26,099 nt of DNA from a virus. Where the stretch lies: positions 1-26,099 of IMG/VR virus record IMGVR_UViG_3300023179_000451, one strand, 5' to 3'. Below, one piece after another: positions 865 through 25,900 of the stretch. The translations under genes were made by a program, and so were the position numbers. Positions within the stretch are counted from its first letter, which is position 1, and every line of letters begins with the position of its first letter. The notes beneath the pieces are model-generated. The model worked only from the letters and a program-made list of their open reading frames with translations, was not told the DNA's origin and made no database searches.

Positions 865-1083
865 ATGCCAACGCAAATTGAAATATATAATTTAACAGGT
901 CAACCAAACTTTGATATATGGTTATGTGATAGCTCATTAAATACATGTGTGTATATTGATACAATATCCTCATCTCCATACATTTTTGATGTTTTACCAA
1001 TATTTAATGGTAACACATCACTTTCTGTAAAAGTAATTGATTCTTTAAATTGTGAATTAATAATAAATGTAACAATTCCATAA
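865..1083 (+). CDS. Small virion/tail-type protein, 72 aa
   Basis: This is a short beta-rich protein (MPTQIEIYNLTGQPNFDIWLCD...) with three cysteines and no charged catalytic-looking residues. No family is recognised with certainty. The composition (Asn, Thr, Ile, Cys, paired short strands) matches the neighbouring fibre-like proteins, so a small tail or fibre component, or a free-standing copy of one fibre domain, is the likeliest reading. It starts the rightward fibre unit and its stop overlaps the next ATG (TAATG at 1081-1085). A TATTTATAAA element precedes it. Gene call good, function inferred from context. Confidence 0.65.
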   Translation: MPTQIEIYNLTGQPNFDIWLCDSSLNTCVYIDTISSSPYIFDVLPIFNGNTSLSVKVIDSLNCELIINVTIP

Positions 1084-2660
1084 TGTGTAATTTTTTAGGT
1101 TATTTTTCTGTTAATGCGGATCCAAATTTGAGTTGTTATAATAATCTTATAACACCATTATATGGAAATGATTTACTTTTTGGTACTATAATTTATCAAA
1201 ACAATTCATGTAGTCTACCGTTAAATTCTACAAATTTTTCTGATGGTTTTGTTTTATATGAAACAAATGGTTTAGGTATAATTTCAAGTATAACACCTTG
1301 CCCATGTGCTCAATTTTATTGCATATCTAACACTGGAACCTTTGATGATGAATATGAATACTCGGGTTCTTATCATGGTTATAATTCCTATTCTGGAATA
1401 TCAAATGGATATTATATATTCTTTTCAACAGGAGATACAAGATGGTGTTTATCTAATTCATTAGGCGGACCTTGTAATTTATTTGGTCCTAGTCCTTGTA
1501 ATTCAAGTTGTCCTGATTTGTGTGATTCTTTGTTTTCATCAGGACATTGTTATACCACAACAACTACAACCAATTTTTTTTGTAATGTAAACTTTGTAGA
1601 TTTATTTACTTGTAACATTCCAGCAACACCTACGCCAACACCTACGCCAACACCTACGCCGACCCCAACTTTAACTCCAACTCCAACAAACCCTTGTGGT
1701 GTTTTAACTTTTCAATTGGATGTTATGACCATAACAAATACTCCAACAAACACGCCAACTAATACTCCAACACCATCAAAACAAATATCAAGACCTTGTA
1801 ATTACAACGGAAAAGTCACTTTTAACACCATAGACGATGAAATTAAATGTGCCGTTAGTAAACAATTTAGAGATTGTTATACTGGTGAATTATATTTTAC
1901 AACAAATGTCACAAAACAATTAAATGGTTCTAACCCAAGAGAAGGTTTTGTTTATGAATCTATAATCAACGACATACCAACTTGTGTTGTTTTTGAAGGA
2001 TTAAAAACAAACATAAGTGGTATTGACGATATTAAATTATTAAATCAAATTGGTCTTGAAAATGAAGGAGCATGTTTAAGTTGTTCAACTACTCCAATAC
2101 CAACATCATCTCCAGTTCCCACAACAACTACTACTACAACAATTTGCTATGACTGTTTTAAAACTGAGACGCTACCACAATTGGGGTCATCTATAACAAC
2201 AAAAGGATTAACTTTAAATGCCACTGGTGCAGGAGCCGTTGATTTAAATTTAACCCCTCAAAAATTAAATAATTGTATATTTGGTCCTGATCCTAAATTT
2301 GCATCTCTTAGATTAGGATTTGGTATTAATCCAACTAACCCATATACTTATAGGTTAAATTTTAATACCCCTGTTAATAACATTGCTTTAAGATTTATAG
2401 ATTATCAATATATTTCTCAATCTTTACAAGAAGTTTTAATTTTTACAACAGATTCTAATGATTTAATGATTAATTCTTGTAGTAATTGTTGCGCTACGAT
2501 ATTAAATAATACAATTACTGCAGACCCTTGTTTTGGTGATTTACAACCAGGAGCTGGCATATTTACTTTTAGTTCTTCTAGACCATATAATTATTTAATT
2601 ATACAAGGTTTAGGAGTTTCAGCAATAACTGTAGACATATGTTTAGATTCTATCAAATAA
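1083..2660 (+). CDS. Cys-rich tail fibre/adhesin-like protein with Pro-Thr linkers, 525 aa
   Basis: This is a modular, secreted-looking virion protein without enzyme motifs. It holds about 29 cysteines. An N-terminal part (about 1-155) contains a Gly/Tyr-rich stretch at about 95-140 (GSYHGYNSYSGISNGYYIFF, then a Trp). A first poly-Thr linker follows at about 157, a Pro-Thr linker at about 181-202, and NTPTNTPTNTPTP at about 219-231. A central domain ends in Cys-x2-Cys (GACLSC), then a second poly-Thr linker near 350 leads into a C-terminal beta domain of about 170 residues. Linkers separating folded modules suggest an extended fibre or receptor-binding protein. It is coupled to the 72-residue gene upstream, and the 832-residue gene follows after 26 bp. 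No database family is recognised; the virion role is inferred from architecture and neighbours. Confidence 0.72.
   Translation: MCNFLGYFSVNADPNLSCYNNLITPLYGNDLLFGTIIYQNNSCSLPLNSTNFSDGFVLYETNGLGIISSITPCPCAQFYCISNTGTFDDEYEYSGSYHGYNSYSGISNGYYIFFSTGDTRWCLSNSLGGPCNLFGPSPCNSSCPDLCDSLFSSGHCYTTTTTTNFFCNVNFVDLFTCNIPATPTPTPTPTPTPTPTLTPTPTNPCGVLTFQLDVMTITNTPTNTPTNTPTPSKQISRPCNYNGKVTFNTIDDEIKCAVSKQFRDCYTGELYFTTNVTKQLNGSNPREGFVYESIINDIPTCVVFEGLKTNISGIDDIKLLNQIGLENEGACLSCSTTPIPTSSPVPTTTTTTTICYDCFKTETLPQLGSSITTKGLTLNATGAGAVDLNLTPQKLNNCIFGPDPKFASLRLGFGINPTNPYTYRLNFNTPVNNIALRFIDYQYISQSLQEVLIFTTDSNDLMINSCSNCCATILNNTITADPCFGDLQPGAGIFTFSSSRPYNYLIIQGLGVSAITVDICLDSIK
1624..1689 (+). repeat. 12-bp tandem repeat encoding Pro-Thr linker
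   Basis: The unit ACACCTACGCCA occurs three times in a row (1626-1661, last copy one base different). It degrades into further CCAACT/CCAACA triplet pairs up to about 1689. In frame it encodes alternating Pro and Thr in the 525-residue protein. Near-identical low-complexity coding stretches occur at 3257-3422 and, on the other strand, at 6328-6450. Confidence 0.8.
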
Positions 2661-2686: not shown

Positions 2687-5185
2687 ATGGCTTATATATT
2701 AAAAAACACATCAGGTTTAATAAATACAAGAGTAACCGATACTGGAAGACAAAAAATGTCTGAAGGTAATTTTAAAATTACATATTTTCAAATAGGAGAT
2801 AGTGAAGTTTCATACAATAAACTTTTAAATACGTATAATCAATATAATTCTTTTATATTTGAGCCAAACTTTAACTCTCAAAATTCGAGTGGTGTCCCTG
2901 AGTCAAACAAACAGAATATTAAATATCCTTATTATGTCAGTGGTCAAACTGGTTCAACATATGGTATTCCAACAGCGGATCCACAAATAAATGCGGTTTA
3001 CAACAGTGCGCCTTTAAGAGGATTTTTTACTGGAAATACAACAGCAAGTACAATTTTATTTAGTGCTTTAACAAACTCAGATTATGTTATTAGTGCAAAT
3101 TACATTATTGATATGGGTCTTTTGAATGGTTCGAATCAAATTGATTTAATTTATAATGGTGTTGACTACACAAACGAAAGAAAGTTTGAAATAGGAGATA
3201 TTATAACAATATATTATGATGGTAATGGATTGTTTGATTGTCAATGTAATAACTTACCAACTCCAACTCCTACACCAACTCCATCAATGAGTTCTTCAAG
3301 TGGTATAAAAACAACAACTTCATCAAACCCATGTGAAACACCAACAGCAACTCCAACACCTACAAAAACACCATGTTTGACTCCGACTCCAAGCAAATTA
3401 TGTCCACCACCATCACCTCCAAATTGTAAAGTAGATGTAAGATCTTGTTTTCAAATATTAACTTATAAAATTATTGATGTTTGTTTAAACACTTTGACAT
3501 TAGATAGACCAACCCCTGACTTTTTTGGGATTGTAAACAACTGTTATGCAAAAGTTTTGATTTATCCTCAAAACATGCAAAAAATATATGATAGTTTAAC
3601 CCCAAATCCTCATTGGGGTGAACAAGTAATTGATTTTGAATCTATTTGTGATACTGATCAATTTGATGTAAAAATTTGGAATATGAATATCCCTTGGACT
3701 GAAAGTCCTGCTGGGTTAATAGAATCAGTTTATGAAGGTTATAATTTTTTTGGTTCAATTGATTATGTTGGTTCGAAAGAATATTTAGGTTATAATTCTA
3801 ATTCTGGTCAAACAGATACCGGTTTGGTTTACTATCGAAATTCATTTGATGAAATTGTTTTAGTAAGTCCCGAAGAACAAAAATCTATTGCTATAATTCA
3901 TTACACAAATCAAACCATAGATTTCTTTTATGGTGAAAAATTTGCTTTGGAACCTTTTAATTCTTTAGAAATTGATAACACTAATGGTCAAGCAAGAAAT
4001 TTTAAACTTCATATTCCTTGGTTAATGTGGCATAAAAATCCTGAATGTTGTTTTGGTCAAACTTTTTGGGTAGATCCTCCAGGATTTGATGACTTATTTT
4101 TATTTCAACCTTATTATATTCAATCTAAAAAAAATATAGATATGAATTTACCTGGACTTAGATATTACAATCTTTGGGATACTAATCCAAATAATGATGG
4201 TGTGCCAAATAGAGTTGGTAAAGTTTTTCCTGATCAAAAAATAATTGTAATTGACGACGAAGAAATTATTGCGGCAATGTCTTATAAATCCAATAGAAAT
4301 TGGACTTTACCTGCCCCCCAACTTTCTTTGATTACTCCTAACACTTGCGGAACATCTTCAGAAAATTCTATTGGTTTATTAACGGGAGATAATCAAACAT
4401 TATATGTAACATATAGATTCACAAACGATTATAATTTTACCAATTCACTTCATTGTAATTACTACCCAAAAATTAGTGGTAACAATCCTATTTGTAATCC
4501 AACAATTTCTCAAAATGTTTCAGTAAGATTCGGTAATGAATTTAATTGTTTATCACAAGGGGAGTATCCAATAACAACAACTACTACGATATATCCAATA
4601 ACAACAACTACTACAATATATCCATACACAACCACCACCACAACTTGTCCCACAGCCTGTTCTGTACCTAATGGTTTTTTTGGAGAAAGGTTTGAAATTA
4701 TTTGTCAACTTGTTAAAACAGGAGAAAGACCTAAGTCCTCAGATTGGAAAATAATTGACTATACTGAATTGCTTTTATCAACTACTGTAAACGGATATCT
4801 AACTCAATCTGGTATTACAAACACAACTTTTGTAATAACTTCAGAGCTTTATGAATCTGCACCATTTTATAACTTAAATAATTATATACCATTAACTACT
4901 TTAGGGACTACAACTCCAAATTTAAATTTTGGAGATGAGTTTTATTTTTATGGTAGTTTTGAAACGGACATACAAGCAACAATATATGAAATGAGATACA
5001 AAATAAATTTAGGTTACAATCAATTTGTAAATTCATCCAATCCTAGTTGGTCTGCTGGAACTAAATCATATGTTACAGAAATTGCCTTATTAGATGAAAA
5101 AGAAGACATTTTAGTAATTTCTAAATTACAATCACCATTAGTAAGACAAGGTATACAACAATACTTAGTTAAGTTGGATTTTTAA
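2687..5185 (+). CDS. Large tail/fibre structural protein with internal Pro-Thr and poly-Thr linkers, 832 aa
   Basis: This is a virion protein with no enzyme motifs. Residues about 8-45 (SGLINTRVTDTGRQKMSEG, then FQIGDSEVSY) form a compact N-terminal module of a type I associate with phage tail and fibre proteins; this is recollection, not a search result. A beta domain at about 160-290 is interrupted by a low-complexity insert (about 191-245: TPTPTPTP, poly-Ser, poly-Thr, more Pro-Thr). The middle (about 290-620) is rich in Trp, Tyr and Asn. Three tandem poly-Thr units (YPITTTTTI type) at about 628-655 lead into a C-terminal domain ending about 765-832 (FYFYGSFETDIQATIYEMRY, then TEIALLD). 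Ordered ends with flexible inserts fit a distal or connecting tail component. Its place in the particle is unknown. Confidence 0.72.
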   Translation: MAYILKNTSGLINTRVTDTGRQKMSEGNFKITYFQIGDSEVSYNKLLNTYNQYNSFIFEPNFNSQNSSGVPESNKQNIKYPYYVSGQTGSTYGIPTADPQINAVYNSAPLRGFFTGNTTASTILFSALTNSDYVISANYIIDMGLLNGSNQIDLIYNGVDYTNERKFEIGDIITIYYDGNGLFDCQCNNLPTPTPTPTPSMSSSSGIKTTTSSNPCETPTATPTPTKTPCLTPTPSKLCPPPSPPNCKVDVRSCFQILTYKIIDVCLNTLTLDRPTPDFFGIVNNCYAKVLIYPQNMQKIYDSLTPNPHWGEQVIDFESICDTDQFDVKIWNMNIPWTESPAGLIESVYEGYNFFGSIDYVGSKEYLGYNSNSGQTDTGLVYYRNSFDEIVLVSPEEQKSIAIIHYTNQTIDFFYGEKFALEPFNSLEIDNTNGQARNFKLHIPWLMWHKNPECCFGQTFWVDPPGFDDLFLFQPYYIQSKKNIDMNLPGLRYYNLWDTNPNNDGVPNRVGKVFPDQKIIVIDDEEIIAAMSYKSNRNWTLPAPQLSLITPNTCGTSSENSIGLLTGDNQTLYVTYRFTNDYNFTNSLHCNYYPKISGNNPICNPTISQNVSVRFGNEFNCLSQGEYPITTTTTIYPITTTTTIYPYTTTTTTCPTACSVPNGFFGERFEIICQLVKTGERPKSSDWKIIDYTELLLSTTVNGYLTQSGITNTTFVITSELYESAPFYNLNNYIPLTTLGTTTPNLNFGDEFYFYGSFETDIQATIYEMRYKINLGYNQFVNSSNPSWSAGTKSYVTEIALLDEKEDILVISKLQSPLVRQGIQQYLVKLDF
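3257..3422 (+). repeat. Low-complexity Pro/Thr/Ser-coding stretch
   Basis: Degenerate CCAACT, CCTACA and CCATCA triplet pairs (densest at 3257-3286 and 3338-3420) encode Pro-Thr, poly-Ser and Pro-rich segments inside the 832-residue protein. The codon pattern matches the linkers at 1624-1689 and 6328-6450. Confidence 0.75.
4571..4651 (+). repeat. Three tandem 27-bp units encoding poly-Thr linker
   Basis: Units 4571-4597 and 4598-4624 differ at one position (ACGATA versus ACAATA). The third, 4625-4651, is diverged but keeps phase and length. Each encodes a nine-residue unit with five or six Thr and a Tyr-Pro or Cys-Pro junction. Two nearly identical adjacent copies suggest recent slippage or unequal recombination. 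Confidence 0.85.
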
Positions 5186-5228
5186 AAACTTTATTTTTTA
5201 AAAAAAAAAATTATAATTAAAACAAAAA

Positions 5229-5828
5229 ATGTCAAAAATAAAAAATTCTCCTAAAGTTTTAGGTCTAGACATTTCTACTAAAACAATTGGTTGGGCTCTT
5301 TTTGAAATTCAAAGTTCTCAATTATTGGAATTAACTCACATTTCACCAAAAATAAAACCCAAAGAAGATGATGCTTTAAAAGAACTTTTATTGAAGTGTA
5401 ATGTTTTTAAAGAAAAATTATTACAATACCAAAATTTAGGATTGGTAAAAGTTATAATTGAAGAGCCCTTAATTAACTCGAACAATGTATATACAATTCA
5501 AACATTGTTAAGGTTTAATAGTTTTATTTTTAAAGAAATATATGAAACTTTAGGCATAGTTCCAGATTTCATTTCAACATATAACGCTAGAAAATATGCG
5601 TTTCCAGAACTTATCCAAGTTAACGATAAAGGAAAATATGTTTTATTTGGTGGTCTACCGAAAGACATAGATAAAAAAATGTTAATTTGGGAAAAAGTTG
5701 CAAAAAAAGAACCTCAAATTATTTGGCAATATACAAAAAACAATATTTTAAAAAAAGAAAATTTTGATCAAAGTGATGCCTATACTTGTGTTTTAGGTTA
5801 CATGAAACACAAAGAAATTTGGAAATAA
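5229..5828 (+). CDS. RuvC-like Holliday junction resolvase (RNase H fold)
   Basis: This is probably a structure-selective nuclease that resolves branched replication and recombination DNA before packaging, the job done in T4 by the unrelated gp49. The fold is recognisable: Asp14 in VLGLDISTKTIGWA (strand 1), Glu78/Glu79 in VKVIIEEPL, and Asp180-x2-Asp183-Ala in NFDQSDAYTCVLGY give the RuvC-type D-E-D-D acidic set. At 199 residues it is slightly longer than cellular RuvC (about 170). The start is the first ATG, 43 bp after the preceding stop; the leader is A-rich without a Shine-Dalgarno sequence and without the TATTTATA element. It lies between two fibre-gene groups and converges on the 468-residue gene, 13 bp apart. 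A CRISPR-associated or transposon RuvC is unlikely at this size. Confidence 0.85.
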   Translation: MSKIKNSPKVLGLDISTKTIGWALFEIQSSQLLELTHISPKIKPKEDDALKELLLKCNVFKEKLLQYQNLGLVKVIIEEPLINSNNVYTIQTLLRFNSFIFKEIYETLGIVPDFISTYNARKYAFPELIQVNDKGKYVLFGGLPKDIDKKMLIWEKVAKKEPQIIWQYTKNNILKKENFDQSDAYTCVLGYMKHKEIWK

Positions 5829-5841
5829 TTTTTATTTGTTT

Positions 5842-7248
5842 TTAAGGGCAGGTTCCGTTTAACTGATTTATTACAACATTTGAATTAGAAACCACAGGAG
5901 CATTAAATGAACAAAGGTTTATTAGTTGGAATGGTAAAATTGGTTGCCCAGATATAGTTATATTTGTCTTGCAATCAACATAAGAATATGTTTGTTGTAC
6001 TTTTGTTTCATTAAACAATGTAAATGGTGTGCAAATTTTTGGTGCCGGTTCAATACTATTTTCACACTCTGTACAATTTTTAAATGTTCTTATTAAACTG
6101 TTGCTTTGATTAGACTGATTATTAATAAAATAGTTTGTCTGCGATATAACAACATTATAATTAGGTGGGAAATTAGGAATTTGTGGAGATACATTTAGGA
6201 AAACATAACAAGATCCATTATTTATAAAATATGTTGATGTTGACATATATGGTCCTGGCACTGCTTGTACAATAACTGTAGGTGGTTCATATAAATTACC
6301 ACACTTACTATATATAAACCATGCTTTTGGTTTTGTTGGTGTTGGTGTTGGGGTACTTGTTGGTGTTTCGCCAGGTGTTGGTGATGGTGTTGGTGATGGT
6401 GTTTGTGTTGGTGTTGGTGTTGGTGTAAGTGTTGGTGTTGGTGTTGGTGTAAAATTTGCACCTAATGAACATACTAGTTCAACCACAAAATCACCATAAA
6501 AATCAGTAATTTTGACTGGATAATTTCCATACCCTAAATTGGAAATTGCAGAACTTTTGTTACCATTTTTCCATTCAATTTTATATGGTGGAGTCCCCCC
6601 TGTAATTCCAACACCAACACTACCGTCATAACTTTCATTATTTGATGGTTCTACGCTAAAACATTGTGCTGACATCGGAAATAATGTTATTACATCGCAT
6701 TCGTTTCTTGGTTGTATTGAAGGGTTGTAAATTTCATGAGATGGTGTTGGTTTTGGGTATGGGTTATCACAAGGATTATCTGTTAAACAAAAATCACAAT
6801 CTTGTGAAGTATATATTAATGGAGATTCAATTACAGTATAATAATAATTTATATCTAATATTGGTAGAAGCGAATAATCAAATTTTTCAAAAATTTGATA
6901 ACATCCATTCTTTATTTCTGGATTTATTGTTGATGTGTAACTATTTGAATAAATTGTGTCTTGAATTTGAAAATCATCAAAATTATCAGGAACTCCGATG
7001 TACATTTTATCATTATTGCAACACCCTAAAGCGGTAAGAACATATTCAACTTGTCCTAAATTAATAATATTAAAAGAATTTCCTGTATATGTTGAAATAG
7101 AGCAGTAATTAATATAATAATCTAAATCTGGAGAGATCGATAAAGATTGAAAATTGCTATTGCAGTCATAAAATTCAAAGTTTTGAATTGTTGTTCCTGT
7201 ATTTACAACTAACAATAATTCACAATTGGTAGAAGGGCATAAACTCAT
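5842..7248 (-). CDS. Fibre/adhesin-like protein with one SprB-type repeat and long Pro-Thr linker, 468 aa
   Basis: This is a modular virion-type protein. Residues about 1-95 form an N-terminal beta domain; about 75-165 is a Cys-delimited module ending in SQDCDFCLTDNPC. About 195-262 is a single SprB-like repeat (DGSVGVGITGGTPPYKIEW, then GNYPVKITD). A low-complexity Pro-Thr/Ser linker covers about 265-307. About 310-400 is a second Cys-delimited module (YSKCGN... ending FKNCTECEN), followed by a C-terminal domain of about 65 residues. The glycosyltransferase gene lies immediately upstream with a 2-bp gap, so the two are very likely co-expressed, making this protein the prime candidate substrate. 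The SprB repeat links it to the 740-residue adhesin. The role is inferred from architecture. Confidence 0.7.
   Translation of the reverse strand: MSLCPSTNCELLLVVNTGTTIQNFEFYDCNSNFQSLSISPDLDYYINYCSISTYTGNSFNIINLGQVEYVLTALGCCNNDKMYIGVPDNFDDFQIQDTIYSNSYTSTINPEIKNGCYQIFEKFDYSLLPILDINYYYTVIESPLIYTSQDCDFCLTDNPCDNPYPKPTPSHEIYNPSIQPRNECDVITLFPMSAQCFSVEPSNNESYDGSVGVGITGGTPPYKIEWKNGNKSSAISNLGYGNYPVKITDFYGDFVVELVCSLGANFTPTPTPTLTPTPTPTQTPSPTPSPTPGETPTSTPTPTPTKPKAWFIYSKCGNLYEPPTVIVQAVPGPYMSTSTYFINNGSCYVFLNVSPQIPNFPPNYNVVISQTNYFINNQSNQSNSLIRTFKNCTECENSIEPAPKICTPFTLFNETKVQQTYSYVDCKTNITISGQPILPFQLINLCSFNAPVVSNSNVVINQLNGTCP
6328..6450 (-). repeat. Low-complexity Pro-Thr-coding stretch, about 120 bp
   Basis: On the plus strand this reads as runs of GGTGTT units with GGTGAT and GGGGTA variants. 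On the minus strand it encodes alternating Pro-Thr/Ser in the 468-residue protein. It is inverted relative to the similar stretches at 1624-1689 and 3257-3422. An apparent His-Gln-rich frame at 6222-6461 is an out-of-frame shadow of this repeat. Confidence 0.8.
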
Positions 7249-7249
7249 G

Positions 7250-7259
7250 TTTATAAATA
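7250..7259 (-). promoter_or_regulatory. TATTTATAAA element before the 7248 gene
   Basis: On the minus strand TATTTATAAA sits one base before the ATG and overlaps the last codons and stop of the glycosyltransferase gene (Tyr-Leu-stop). Because it is also coding here, the match may partly be chance. Confidence 0.25.
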
Positions 7260-8240
7260 ACTTACTTTTTGTTTTTGTATTAATGATTTTATAACTTCAA
7301 TATATTTATTTGTACTACTATCTTTTTCAATATAATCAAAGTGGTTAAAATTTTTTTCTATTTTTTTTATTGGGCATTGATTTATATAATCTCCTTTATA
7401 AAATTTAGTATTTTTCAAGTTATCAGTAACTCCTGCCATATGTAAAATTGGATTCTTTTCGTAAACTTCTAAAGAATCTGTTGCCCATGAAAAATCCAAA
7501 TCTTTAGTTATTTCTGTTTTTTTATTTATTAACCACAAATTCCATAAAAGCGACCACATTTCTGCGGTCCAAAATTGTATTTGTCCCGACTTTATTGGGT
7601 ATCTTTTGTCATAATCCAACATTTGATGATACATTTTTGTTGAATCTTCACTTATTTTTTTCCATAATTGATAATCAGTTTTTTTTATAATATATTGACC
7701 ACCACCAGATTCTTTTTGTTTTTCTTTTATAGTTTCTAAATCAATACCAACAACTTGTGCCATTTCTGAAATTAGTTGATTTTTTTTGGATGTTGGGTGT
7801 TGTAGTTCGTATCTTTTACAACAATCAATTATATAGTTATATCCGATATATCCTATTGTGTTTGATAAATATATAATATCATTTGATATTAAATTTTCAA
7901 AATTTGGTAAAATTCTAAAAATAATGTCAGCATCGTGTAAAAAAAATAAATCACCTCTTGTTTCTTCTTCTTCGATCCATTTATAAATTAAAAATGGTTT
8001 TATACTAGGTATATATGTTTTTATTTTTCTTTCATCTTTATAAAAATGTAAATTTATTCCCATTTTTTTTAATTCTAATGCCCCTTTTGATGGCTTGTCA
8101 TTAGGATTAACTAATGAAAATATAACATGTATATTTTTGGGATTTATACCATTTTCAATAAAATTATGTATATATATCTTACATTGCCAATGAAAATAAC
8201 TTACATCAGGTTGTGCGGTAACAAACAAAAGATTTTTCAT
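7251..8240 (-). CDS. Glycosyltransferase with DxD motif, resembling hydroxyproline O-arabinosyltransferases
   Basis: This is a probable cytoplasmic sugar-nucleotide-dependent glycosyltransferase of 329 residues, without signal peptide or membrane anchor. The N-terminus (LLFVTAQPDVSYFHWQCKIY) has a Trp-Gln-Cys motif. The DxD metal/nucleotide site is LHDADII at about 101-107, preceded by PFLIYKWIEEEE and followed by ILPNF. A Gly-rich segment (ESGGGQYIIKK, about 177-187), an acidic-aromatic motif (FWTAEMWSLLW, about 223-233) and His267 follow. As I recall the plant HPAT (CAZy GT95) and serine galactosyltransferase (GT96) families, they have the same motif order: WQC, a DxD-like site before NPLPN, a Gly/Pro/Ile segment, and W-x-EMY. 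The match is by eye only. Its neighbours are proteins with long Pro-Thr and poly-Thr linkers. Glycosyltransferase: good confidence; the HPAT-like subfamily is a hypothesis. Confidence 0.75.
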   Translation of the reverse strand: MKNLLFVTAQPDVSYFHWQCKIYIHNFIENGINPKNIHVIFSLVNPNDKPSKGALELKKMGINLHFYKDERKIKTYIPSIKPFLIYKWIEEEETRGDLFFLHDADIIFRILPNFENLISNDIIYLSNTIGYIGYNYIIDCCKRYELQHPTSKKNQLISEMAQVVGIDLETIKEKQKESGGGQYIIKKTDYQLWKKISEDSTKMYHQMLDYDKRYPIKSGQIQFWTAEMWSLLWNLWLINKKTEITKDLDFSWATDSLEVYEKNPILHMAGVTDNLKNTKFYKGDYINQCPIKKIEKNFNHFDYIEKDSSTNKYIEVIKSLIQKQKVSYL

Positions 8241-8279: not shown

Positions 8280-10502
8280 TTATATAGATAAGGTTGTAGT
8301 TGTTGTTATTGAACAAGAAACACAACTAACATCATAATTAATTTCAAGATTAACCAATAAATTTTGATCAGTCAATATATTGTAATCAACTTGAATGCAA
8401 TCCTTTTGTTTTGATGAACATTTACTTTTTGCCAATATTGAATTAGTTGCTAGATTAAAATCAACGTCACCAAATCCACTGTATTGTAATATTAAACTTT
8501 TTAAAGTTTTTAACCATAAATCGTCGGTTGGTGCATCAAATAAACTATTTGTAACATAAAAAGTTTCTTCTTTAATTTCTCCTTCTAAATTTACAATTGC
8601 TGTAAAACTTGCTGAATTTAAAATACAATTTACATCACCATATGTTAAATCATAAAAACCTTCGTTCAACATTTGAGACATTCCTCTTTTTCCAACTGTT
8701 TTACTATCAATAAAATTATCAACACAAACAGTAAAACTACTAGAATTATTATAATAAGAAGTTCCTAATAATTGTATTGAATCTGTTTTTGTACACCCAA
8801 ATTCATCTGTTACCGTTACTGTATACGTTCCTGCGGACAAACCAACTAAATGAACCCCACTTTGCACTCCAACATTTGGGCTCCATGTAATATTAAATAA
8901 AGGTACTCCAGAAATAATATTTAAATAAATTTCACCATCGTTTCCTAAAATTGGGTTTACAACTGAAAAATTAAAATTTACAGGTTGTGAAGAAGGTACA
9001 ATTGCTGTAGTGTTTTGTACACATCCTGCGGCATCTGTAGTTGTTATGTTGTATATACCTGAAGATAAATTTGTAAAAAGAGAACTTTGTTGGATTGAGT
9101 TAATATTTGGTGTTCCTCCATTGATATTATAAGTCATTGGTAATGTTGGAGTTCCTGATATTGATATAATCAAAGACCCATTATTTTGTCCGCAAGTTGT
9201 TCCAGTCACAGTGACTGATGGTAAATAACTATTTGTATTTGTAACATTTAATGTTGTAGAAAAAATACAACCCGATGTGTTTGGAAAATTTTCAATAGTT
9301 AATGTATATGTTCCTGTTGGAACATTAGTAAAATTACATACGCCATTTGTGTATTGGTCTTGAGTAATAGGTCCATTTATAGAATATTTTAGTGTACTTG
9401 CGTATATACCATTATTTATTAATATCGATATGGATCCATTATTATTATTACATGTTGAGTTTATTGTACTTATAGTGGTTATATTAAATCCATTTGGTGA
9501 AACCAAACTTGTTGTGCCGCTTGCAACACACAATCCGGCGTCAAAAACGTTTACTAAAAAAGTTCCTCCTGGTAAATTTGTAAATGTGTATTGTGTATCA
9601 AAAACAACATCAACAACACCATTAGATCCAGAAAAACAATATGGTCCAGTACCACCACTTATAAAAACAGTTAATTCTCCGTTGTTATCAAAACAAGTTG
9701 GTTGTACTGCGGCAAATGTGACAATACCAAGAGGATTCACAACATTCACAGTTGCGGTATCTGTAATTGTACATCCTGCACCATCTGTAATAGTCATTAC
9801 ATAGGTACCAGCGGTTAATCCTGTTATTGGACATCCTGTTTGACCGCCAGCATTTTGACTCCAAGTAATTGTATAAGGAGCCGTTCCAGTGATACCTGTC
9901 ACATATATTTTACCACTACCAGTATTACTAATACATGATGAATCATTCACAACATAAAACCCATATCCTATTGTGGTTGATGATTTAATCAAACAACTTT
10001 CTGAAAACCCACTACATCCGCCAGGATCTAAACTTTCAACATAATATATACCAGAAGATAAATTAGAAAAAACGTTATTAAATGAGTCTCCACTGTTTAT
10101 ATATCCATTTGTTGTCTCATACAAGAAATATATATTATTACCAAAACTATTAATTGTTGTTGCTGTTAACGATCCATTATTTAATCCACAAGTTGTATTA
10201 TTAACGTCAATAGTTACGCAAGTGCCAGTTGAAATGAAAATATCAAAATAAGTTGTTTGTGGAGTTGGGTTAGTACATGCGTCAGTTATACCTATGGTAT
10301 ATGTGCCTCCTGTTAAATGATTTGTAGTATATGCTGTAGTTGATGCGGATGTTGGAAAAAGTCCTGTTGATGTTAGTTCAAATACGGTGTATCCAGATGT
10401 TGTAAACCCACCTAATATTTGAAAATACACAGCACCATTTCCTGTATTACTGCAGTCTCCAGTAACTGAATAGCTATCTAATATAATTGGTGAACAACTC
10501 AT
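8280..10502 (-). CDS. SprB-repeat adhesin / receptor-binding tail protein, 740 aa
   Basis: By eye the first ~573 residues are seven tandem domains of about 75-90 residues. Each has the form C-x-x-NNG-S-(I/L) ... SGG/ISG ... PY-x-(I/Y)-x-W/N ... L-x-x-GTY-x-(V/I)-x-(I/V)-TD-x-x-GC, the signature of the SprB repeat first described in the gliding adhesin of Flavobacterium. The remaining ~165 residues are a separate domain ending in a poly-Thr tail (SITTTTTLSI). That domain resembles the C-terminus of the 998-residue baseplate protein encoded just upstream, with which this gene overlaps by 4 bp (ATGA). The likely role is a baseplate-attached adhesin that binds the host surface. No signal peptide is present, consistent with assembly into the virion. 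The repeat assignment is firm; the receptor and exact place are unknown. Confidence 0.78.
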   Translation of the reverse strand: MSCSPIILDSYSVTGDCSNTGNGAVYFQILGGFTTSGYTVFELTSTGLFPTSASTTAYTTNHLTGGTYTIGITDACTNPTPQTTYFDIFISTGTCVTIDVNNTTCGLNNGSLTATTINSFGNNIYFLYETTNGYINSGDSFNNVFSNLSSGIYYVESLDPGGCSGFSESCLIKSSTTIGYGFYVVNDSSCISNTGSGKIYVTGITGTAPYTITWSQNAGGQTGCPITGLTAGTYVMTITDGAGCTITDTATVNVVNPLGIVTFAAVQPTCFDNNGELTVFISGGTGPYCFSGSNGVVDVVFDTQYTFTNLPGGTFLVNVFDAGLCVASGTTSLVSPNGFNITTISTINSTCNNNNGSISILINNGIYASTLKYSINGPITQDQYTNGVCNFTNVPTGTYTLTIENFPNTSGCIFSTTLNVTNTNSYLPSVTVTGTTCGQNNGSLIISISGTPTLPMTYNINGGTPNINSIQQSSLFTNLSSGIYNITTTDAAGCVQNTTAIVPSSQPVNFNFSVVNPILGNDGEIYLNIISGVPLFNITWSPNVGVQSGVHLVGLSAGTYTVTVTDEFGCTKTDSIQLLGTSYYNNSSSFTVCVDNFIDSKTVGKRGMSQMLNEGFYDLTYGDVNCILNSASFTAIVNLEGEIKEETFYVTNSLFDAPTDDLWLKTLKSLILQYSGFGDVDFNLATNSILAKSKCSSKQKDCIQVDYNILTDQNLLVNLEINYDVSCVSCSITTTTTLSI

Positions 10503-25441: not shown

Positions 25442-25900
25442 TTAAATATTCAAAATAATAAAATCTTGCGTTTCAAAAGCATCTGAAGTTATTCTATAAT
25501 CTATTCTTACTTTTGCGGTATGTTCTAATTCTGATATATTTGTGACCTTAAAAACTTTTTCTCCGTCACTATTTACAAAATTTCCTTTGTCTTCTAAACC
25601 AGAAGAAGCGTCCGTAATGTTTATATTTGTGATTAAAACATTTGGTAAAAATAATTCTACTGATTCTCTGATTTCTGATTCTACTTGTGCAAATGTTGGT
25701 CCATCCAAAGGTTCAAATATGTATTCATAAAGTCTTGTACCAAATTCAGGTAAAAAATATCTACTACCTTTTTTTGTTAATAACAAATGTATTAAATTAC
25801 TTCTTATTTCTTGATTTGCATAATCCGACAAATCTAAAAACTTTCCATTGAACGATTCTCTAAAAGGAAATGTTATACCATATGAAATACCTGTTGACAT
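25442..25900 (-). CDS. gp25: Baseplate wedge protein, T4 gp25-like (GPW/gp25 family)
   Basis: gp25 nucleates the contractile sheath on the inner baseplate; homologues occur in P2 (gpW), type VI secretion (TssE) and R-type tailocins. The family hallmark is clear: an N-terminal fold (SYGITFPFRESFNGKFLDLS), an aliphatic helix, then LLLTKKGSRYFLPEFGTRLY (residues 39-58) and EYIFEPLD, giving the conserved G-R-x-F-x-P-E-F-G-(T/S)-x-L signature. At 152 residues it is near T4 gp25 (132), with a slightly longer C-terminal strand region. It starts the leftward baseplate operon, 6 bp before gp6, and has a TATTTATA element in its leader downstream of a terminator that closes the preceding gene. Confidence 0.95.
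   Translation of the reverse strand: MSTGISYGITFPFRESFNGKFLDLSDYANQEIRSNLIHLLLTKKGSRYFLPEFGTRLYEYIFEPLDGPTFAQVESEIRESVELFLPNVLITNINITDASSGLEDKGNFVNSDGEKVFKVTNISELEHTAKVRIDYRITSDAFETQDFIILNI

Follow-up and report, generated by a model that had tools for sequence, protein, structure and literature searches.

The glycosyltransferase encoded at positions 7251-8240 (minus strand) of the window, the whole 26,099-nucleotide stretch of viral DNA analysed here, very likely O-glycosylates oligo-threonine tags on the phage's own virion proteins. The predicted fold and active site, the position of the gene in a structural operon and the association of its family with the tags all point this way, as read from sequence and structure prediction; the catalytic activity, the sugar, threonine as the acceptor and the benefit to the phage are what we infer. 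The 329-residue product belongs to phrog_4417 (E 2.2e-68, residues 6-319 against positions 3-290 of the 293-position profile), a family that is listed in PHROG as of unknown function and that also appears as 'prophage pi2 protein 34', with no role or acceptor given in the annotations consulted.

The operon includes a gp25-like baseplate wedge protein (25442-25900, minus strand; PF04965, E 1.8e-10), so the window represents the baseplate module of a contractile-tailed phage. Capsid and tail-tube genes are absent from it, and the window's own acceptors are for this reason inferred. Six runs of five to seven threonines (T5-T7) occur in the window, against about 0.13 runs of T5 or longer expected from shuffling of 14 proteins, and all of them, which the initial annotation had not described, lie in three proteins flanking the glycosyltransferase, with no T5 or longer run elsewhere in the window. 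Two are found in a 525-residue protein (1083-2660, plus strand; T6 at 158 and T7 at 347, together with a Pro-Thr linker), and three (T5, T5 and T6; ITTTTTIYPITTTTTIYPYTTTTTTCP, residues 630-653) in an 832-residue virion or fibre-like protein (2687-5185, plus strand) that also carries a Pro-Thr linker and whose orthologue, with Thr runs, lies downstream of the glycosyltransferase in most relatives. Both proteins are candidate acceptors. The sixth run is in the 740-residue SprB-repeat virion protein encoded directly upstream of the glycosyltransferase (8280-10502, minus strand; SprB, E 1.1e-9), whose C-terminus reads ...SITTTTTLSI, with the T5 at 733-737, three residues before the end. This run is a candidate C-terminal acceptor tag but is weak on its own, because it is a single run, against 0.09 expected, in a Thr-rich protein. 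A 468-residue protein that starts 2 nt after the glycosyltransferase stop (5842-7248, minus strand; SprB-like, E 2e-4) contains a Pro-Thr linker at about residues 265-305, and no T5 run was found in it when the window proteins were scanned; it is a possible secondary acceptor. The Thr runs of the window are encoded by a mixture of ACA, ACT, ACC and ACG codons, which rules out a simple DNA repeat, or microsatellite, as their origin.

Outside the window, protein searches recovered phrog_4417 relatives in 74 isolate-phage records, with hosts mainly in Lactobacillus, Enterococcus, Staphylococcus and Lactococcus, plus one Chryseobacterium phage. Additionally, relatives are encoded in 207 viral-contig stretches and at 36 bacterial-genome loci, almost all of them from Bacillota. 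Two Bacteroidota genomes (L252 and L485) have divergent homologues without nearby Thr tags, and the open frame in L485 is 773 residues long. In siphophages the gene is usually found among the head and tail genes, typically right behind the gene for the major tail or the major capsid protein, and in distant isolates, including phiFL1A, SA2, VPE25, 1706, iLp84, bIL285, CHPC836 and others, it also lies among structural genes with tagged virion proteins.

The tags of the Bacillota phages and prophages comprise 5 to 14 threonines and stand at the C-terminus of both the major capsid and the major tail protein. Examples are the ends of the phiFL1A tail protein (...GTTTTTSTTTTTTSSTTTTTTTQASSK), of a VPE25 virion protein (...DTTTTTTTTTTAGK), of the tail protein of phage 1706 (...TTTTTTTTTTHHD), which also has a protease/capsid protein with TTTTTTTTTHHD, and of a bIL285 virion protein (...TTTTTTTTTRHD), while in iLp84 the capsid and tail proteins both end in ...TTTTTTTSK. 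Runs of T5 or longer were present at 12 of the 15 isolate-phage loci, and at all 15 when variant Thr-rich repeats are counted, the three variant isolates being 9183 (tail protein ...TTTDPVTTTSTTRQ), LP65 (TETQTQTQ repeats) and SAC12B (TTVKPTTVAP repeats). Thr runs were likewise found at 35 of the 36 prophage loci, mostly on capsid and tail proteins both. The tagged proteins belong to at least three capsid families (phrog_10, 29 and 840) and two tail families (phrog_88 and 238). Furthermore, the residues after the last threonine were identical on the capsid and tail proteins of 12 out of 20 genomes, compared to 4 expected when the proteins were re-paired by permutation (maximum of 10 in 2000 permutations). 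The initial annotation had named threonine among the likelier acceptors, and this remains the best reading, as Thr-rich low-complexity segments of virion proteins co-occur with the gene in relatives.

The presence of the tag follows that of the enzyme. Tail-protein homologues were gathered with a tag-free profile and counted only where the flanking DNA was sufficient: 17 had both glycosyltransferase and tag, 62 had neither, and none had one without the other (Fisher 1e-17). Among capsid homologues, 15 had both, 42 had neither, one had the glycosyltransferase without a tag and none had a tag without the glycosyltransferase; in the lone exception (L275) the ending does not resemble the C-termini of other capsid proteins, and the frame may be broken or wrongly chosen. 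On the tail-protein tree the presence of the glycosyltransferase changes about 15 times, at least five of them on supported branches, which makes it less likely that common descent alone explains the association. In most random pairings the tag moved with the enzyme in all five independent pairs (mean 4.8), and it never moved in the opposite direction; restricted to the supported branches, a sign test has five pairs and gives p of about 0.06. At L217 and L220, two apparent mismatches on the tree, the ORFs immediately upstream of the glycosyltransferase are rich in threonine. The reverse test gave the same direction: of 40 viral contigs picked solely for encoding a T7 run in the Thr frame, 9 had the glycosyltransferase, compared to 0 of 39 contigs in which that DNA pattern occurs but no plausible ORF translates it as Thr. 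The other 31 contigs, many of them short fragments, had no phrog_4417 member, and Thr runs therefore evidently have other uses or enzymes too. At loci lacking the glycosyltransferase the slot after the tail gene is occupied by other small ORFs; in three of them (L281, L288 and L307) a collagen-like Gly-X-Y protein can be encoded there, which may decorate the surface in a different way. The PEGA/GGVEG endings common to capsid and tail proteins at loci without the enzyme (L253-L332) were considered as a second tag and rejected, because a Shine-Dalgarno-like sequence serving the following gene lies within their codons.

The window's freshwater lineage shows the same pattern in other proteins. In 57 distinct relatives (60-69% identity), the ORFs up to 8 kb downstream of the glycosyltransferase contained 237 T5 runs, compared to about 7.5 expected. 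A Thr run was present at 53 of these 57 loci and at 4 of 30 loci without the glycosyltransferase, a rough comparison because the latter, defined as contigs that encode a homologous 998-residue protein and extend at least 5 kb downstream, are often truncated. In three relatives (L519, L520 and L521) the Thr runs lie at about residues 290-425 of a protein with a tail-sheath-like N-terminus, which suggests an insertion into a surface loop; no profile matched this protein, and its sheath identity is our reading of that N-terminus.

The initial annotation had pointed to a Pro-Thr-linker protein 2 nt from the glycosyltransferase and to two more such proteins close by, all three of which are there (5842-7248, 1083-2660 and 2687-5185), and had taken these linkers as the segments that are decorated. 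A reading in which the extensin-like Pro-Thr linkers of fibre proteins are the main acceptors and the Thr runs are incidental agrees with the presence of linkers close to the gene at 53 of 63 freshwater-lineage loci, with their place directly next to it in the window and with the TTVKPTTVAP repeats that adjoin the divergent glycosyltransferase copy of SAC12B. We nevertheless consider it unlikely, because no Pro-Thr linker (PT8 or longer) was found at the 15 isolate-phage or the 36 prophage loci with the glycosyltransferase, where Thr runs are near-universal, and because a few relatives of the lineage without the enzyme still keep such linkers. Oligo-Thr runs, by comparison, occur at 59 of the 63 freshwater loci. 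The co-occurrence of gene and linker thus holds in the window's lineage only, so the linkers are not the defining acceptor of the family, and they may be additional acceptors. The broader claim that the phage glycosylates its own structural proteins is upheld by the structural-operon position of the gene and by its co-occurrence with Thr-rich segments.

A target outside the virion is less probable still. Modification of a host surface polysaccharide, leading to receptor alteration or superinfection exclusion, or of phage DNA would correspond to the commonest established roles of phage glycosyltransferases (also discussed in PMC12619734), and two bacterial genomes do have homologues away from Thr-tagged phage genes. 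We regard such a target as very unlikely, because the siphophage genes usually lie between late structural genes and not in lysogenic-conversion or DNA-modification modules, the enzyme is present in virulent phages, and the one-to-one association with capsid and tail tags would be left without a reason.

The identification of the protein as a glycosyltransferase, proposed initially from its motifs, was borne out by the structure prediction run here. An AlphaFold2 model built with 46 window and locus sequences as input had a pLDDT of 95.9 and a pTM of 0.93, and comparison with solved structures (Foldseek, VIA-align) matched it to GT-A enzymes, namely glycogenin (Z 15.9), Skp1 alpha-galactosyltransferase (14.2), UGGT (about 14), LgtC (13.9) and GlyE (13.8), several of which act on proteins. 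In VIA-align, 746 of 1000 aligned chains reached Z of at least 8 and, among the matches listed, all were GT-A enzymes. The DAD motif at residues 103-105 is present as first noted, and D103 and D105 are invariant in a set of 16 family members and then in 46. The WQC, KPF, LPNF, Gly-rich and W-x-AEM-W motifs are also there, with most positions conserved across the family. H267 and K282 are near-invariant in the 46 members and belong to a C-terminal H-x-x-G...K motif. GT8 enzymes have a C-terminal H-x-x-G-x-x-K-P-W motif, which that of phrog_4417 resembles. The DxD and the fold are likewise shared with GT8/GT24 enzymes (glycogenin, Skp1 alpha-galactosyltransferase, Streptococcus pneumoniae GlyE, LgtC and UGGT; Z 13.5-15.9 over about 210-250 aligned residues), whereas sequence identity to them is only 6-12%. 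The nearness is structural only, since the Pfam GT8 model (Glyco_transf_8) matched none of the 46 members at E<=10; in addition, no Pfam or NCBIfam model matched the window protein meaningfully, and neither a single-sequence nor a profile search of PDB sequences gave a match. The GT-A fold match, the invariant DxD and the near-invariant H267 and K282 indicate that the protein is very probably an active glycosyltransferase, predicted to be structurally GT8/GT24-like.

These comparisons also bear on a proposed kinship with plant enzymes. The hydroxyproline O-arabinosyltransferases (HPAT, GT95) and the SGT enzymes (GT96) of plants glycosylate Ser or Hyp in Pro-rich repeat proteins and have a DxD, as phrog_4417 does. 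The order of the motifs, noted by eye in the initial annotation, had suggested that the window protein is related to them, and a common GT-A-type fold class is plausible. However, PF23452 (HPAT) matched neither the window protein nor any of the 46 members at E<=10, which leaves the comparison without sequence support; the nearest solved folds are of GT8/GT24 type, and hydroxyproline, the HPAT acceptor, is not expected in phage proteins. Membership of GT95 or GT96 at the sequence level is therefore highly improbable. A search for a bridging PF23452 sequence found none in 296 Bacteroidota genomes, a result in which the search's own controls were also silent, so that absence in bacteria is not established by it. 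Lastly, that the protein is inert and acts as a chaperone or binding partner of the Thr-tagged proteins, which the association alone would fit too, is the least credible reading, given that neither the DxD nor the active-site residues around it vary, even among members with no more than 23-30% identity.

According to the virion-tag reading, the enzyme would most likely use a nucleotide-sugar as donor, probably a UDP-sugar held through Mn2+ by the DxD and the C-terminal His, and pass the sugar during particle production to the Thr side chains of short exposed oligo-Thr runs. In Bacillota phages the acceptors would be the tags in which the major capsid and major tail proteins end, and in the contractile-tailed lineage of the window they would be in tail-fibre or adhesin-like proteins and, in some relatives, in the sheath-like protein. 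The particle would then be coated with mucin-like O-glycans, which could provide shielding, stability or altered adsorption.

Glycosylation of virions by phage enzymes has been described in mycobacteriophages, in which the C-termini of capsid and tail-tube proteins are modified and the glycans protect the virions against antibodies (Freeman et al. 2023, cited in PMC12619734 and PMC12363180). The Che8 gp108-110 and Corndog gp38 systems, as far as the same texts describe them, resemble our proposal in that the glycosyltransferases are phage-encoded and the targets are capsid and tail-tube C-termini, and the Che8 capsid and tail proteins also have a common short ending (GS). Unlike phrog_4417, the enzymes of Che8 have Pfam matches to GT2 and GT25, and no significant alignment was found between gp108-110 and phrog_4417. 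The Che8 capsid and tail proteins also lack an oligo-Thr tag, the hosts are actinobacteria and the glycosyltransferase genes lie far from the structural genes. The best reading is that the phrog_4417 system would be analogous to, and not homologous with, Che8 glycosylation, with a distinct enzyme family and an oligo-Thr tag. Because the Che8 enzymes are GT2/GT25 proteins unrelated by sequence and their proteins have no Thr runs, this would be a new form of the known phage virion glycosylation.

More generally, it seems probable that phrog_4417 constitutes a widespread and portable phage O-glycosylation system, common to Bacillota and Bacteroidota phages, in which a single glycosyltransferase reads a short oligo-Thr tag on whichever virion protein is exposed at the surface, be it capsid, tail tube, sheath-like protein or fibre. 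Gain and loss would affect enzyme and tag jointly, and a mucin-like coat would be built from a minimal, transplantable sequon. This would give a likely function to a widespread family of 'unknown' phage proteins (more than 200 viral-contig stretches, 74 isolate-phage records and 36 genome contigs) and would account for the fact that many capsid and tail proteins end in poly-threonine. It would also predict which phages have glycosylated particles, with a bearing on stability, adsorption and immune recognition, and offers a candidate one-enzyme, short-tag tool for protein O-glycosylation. The oligo-Thr tagging system appears to be largely undescribed so far: neither oligo-Thr tags nor phrog_4417 were described in the open-licence papers searched, and a study of low-complexity regions in phage proteomes gives alanine, glycine and proline as the most enriched residues (PMC6821194).

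Two further observations concern the arrangement of the genes. In phages SA2 and TPWB06 (L083, 7111-7924, and L095, 5158-5920) the tail protein end, T8P or T9P, overlaps a Thr-rich ORF in another frame, which suggests, from the reading frames, a programmed frameshift adding a longer Thr-rich tail. In the window, the block at 2687-5828, with the 832-residue protein and a RuvC-like 199-residue protein, is inverted relative to the glycosyltransferase in comparison with 19 relatives examined; no clear inverted repeats were found at its breakpoints, and the block could be either a real inversion or an assembly error. In all 19 relatives the genes for the 740-residue protein, the glycosyltransferase, the 468-residue protein and the 832-residue protein follow one another on one strand, together with that for the 199-residue protein where seen, and the gene for the 525-residue protein is on the opposite strand.
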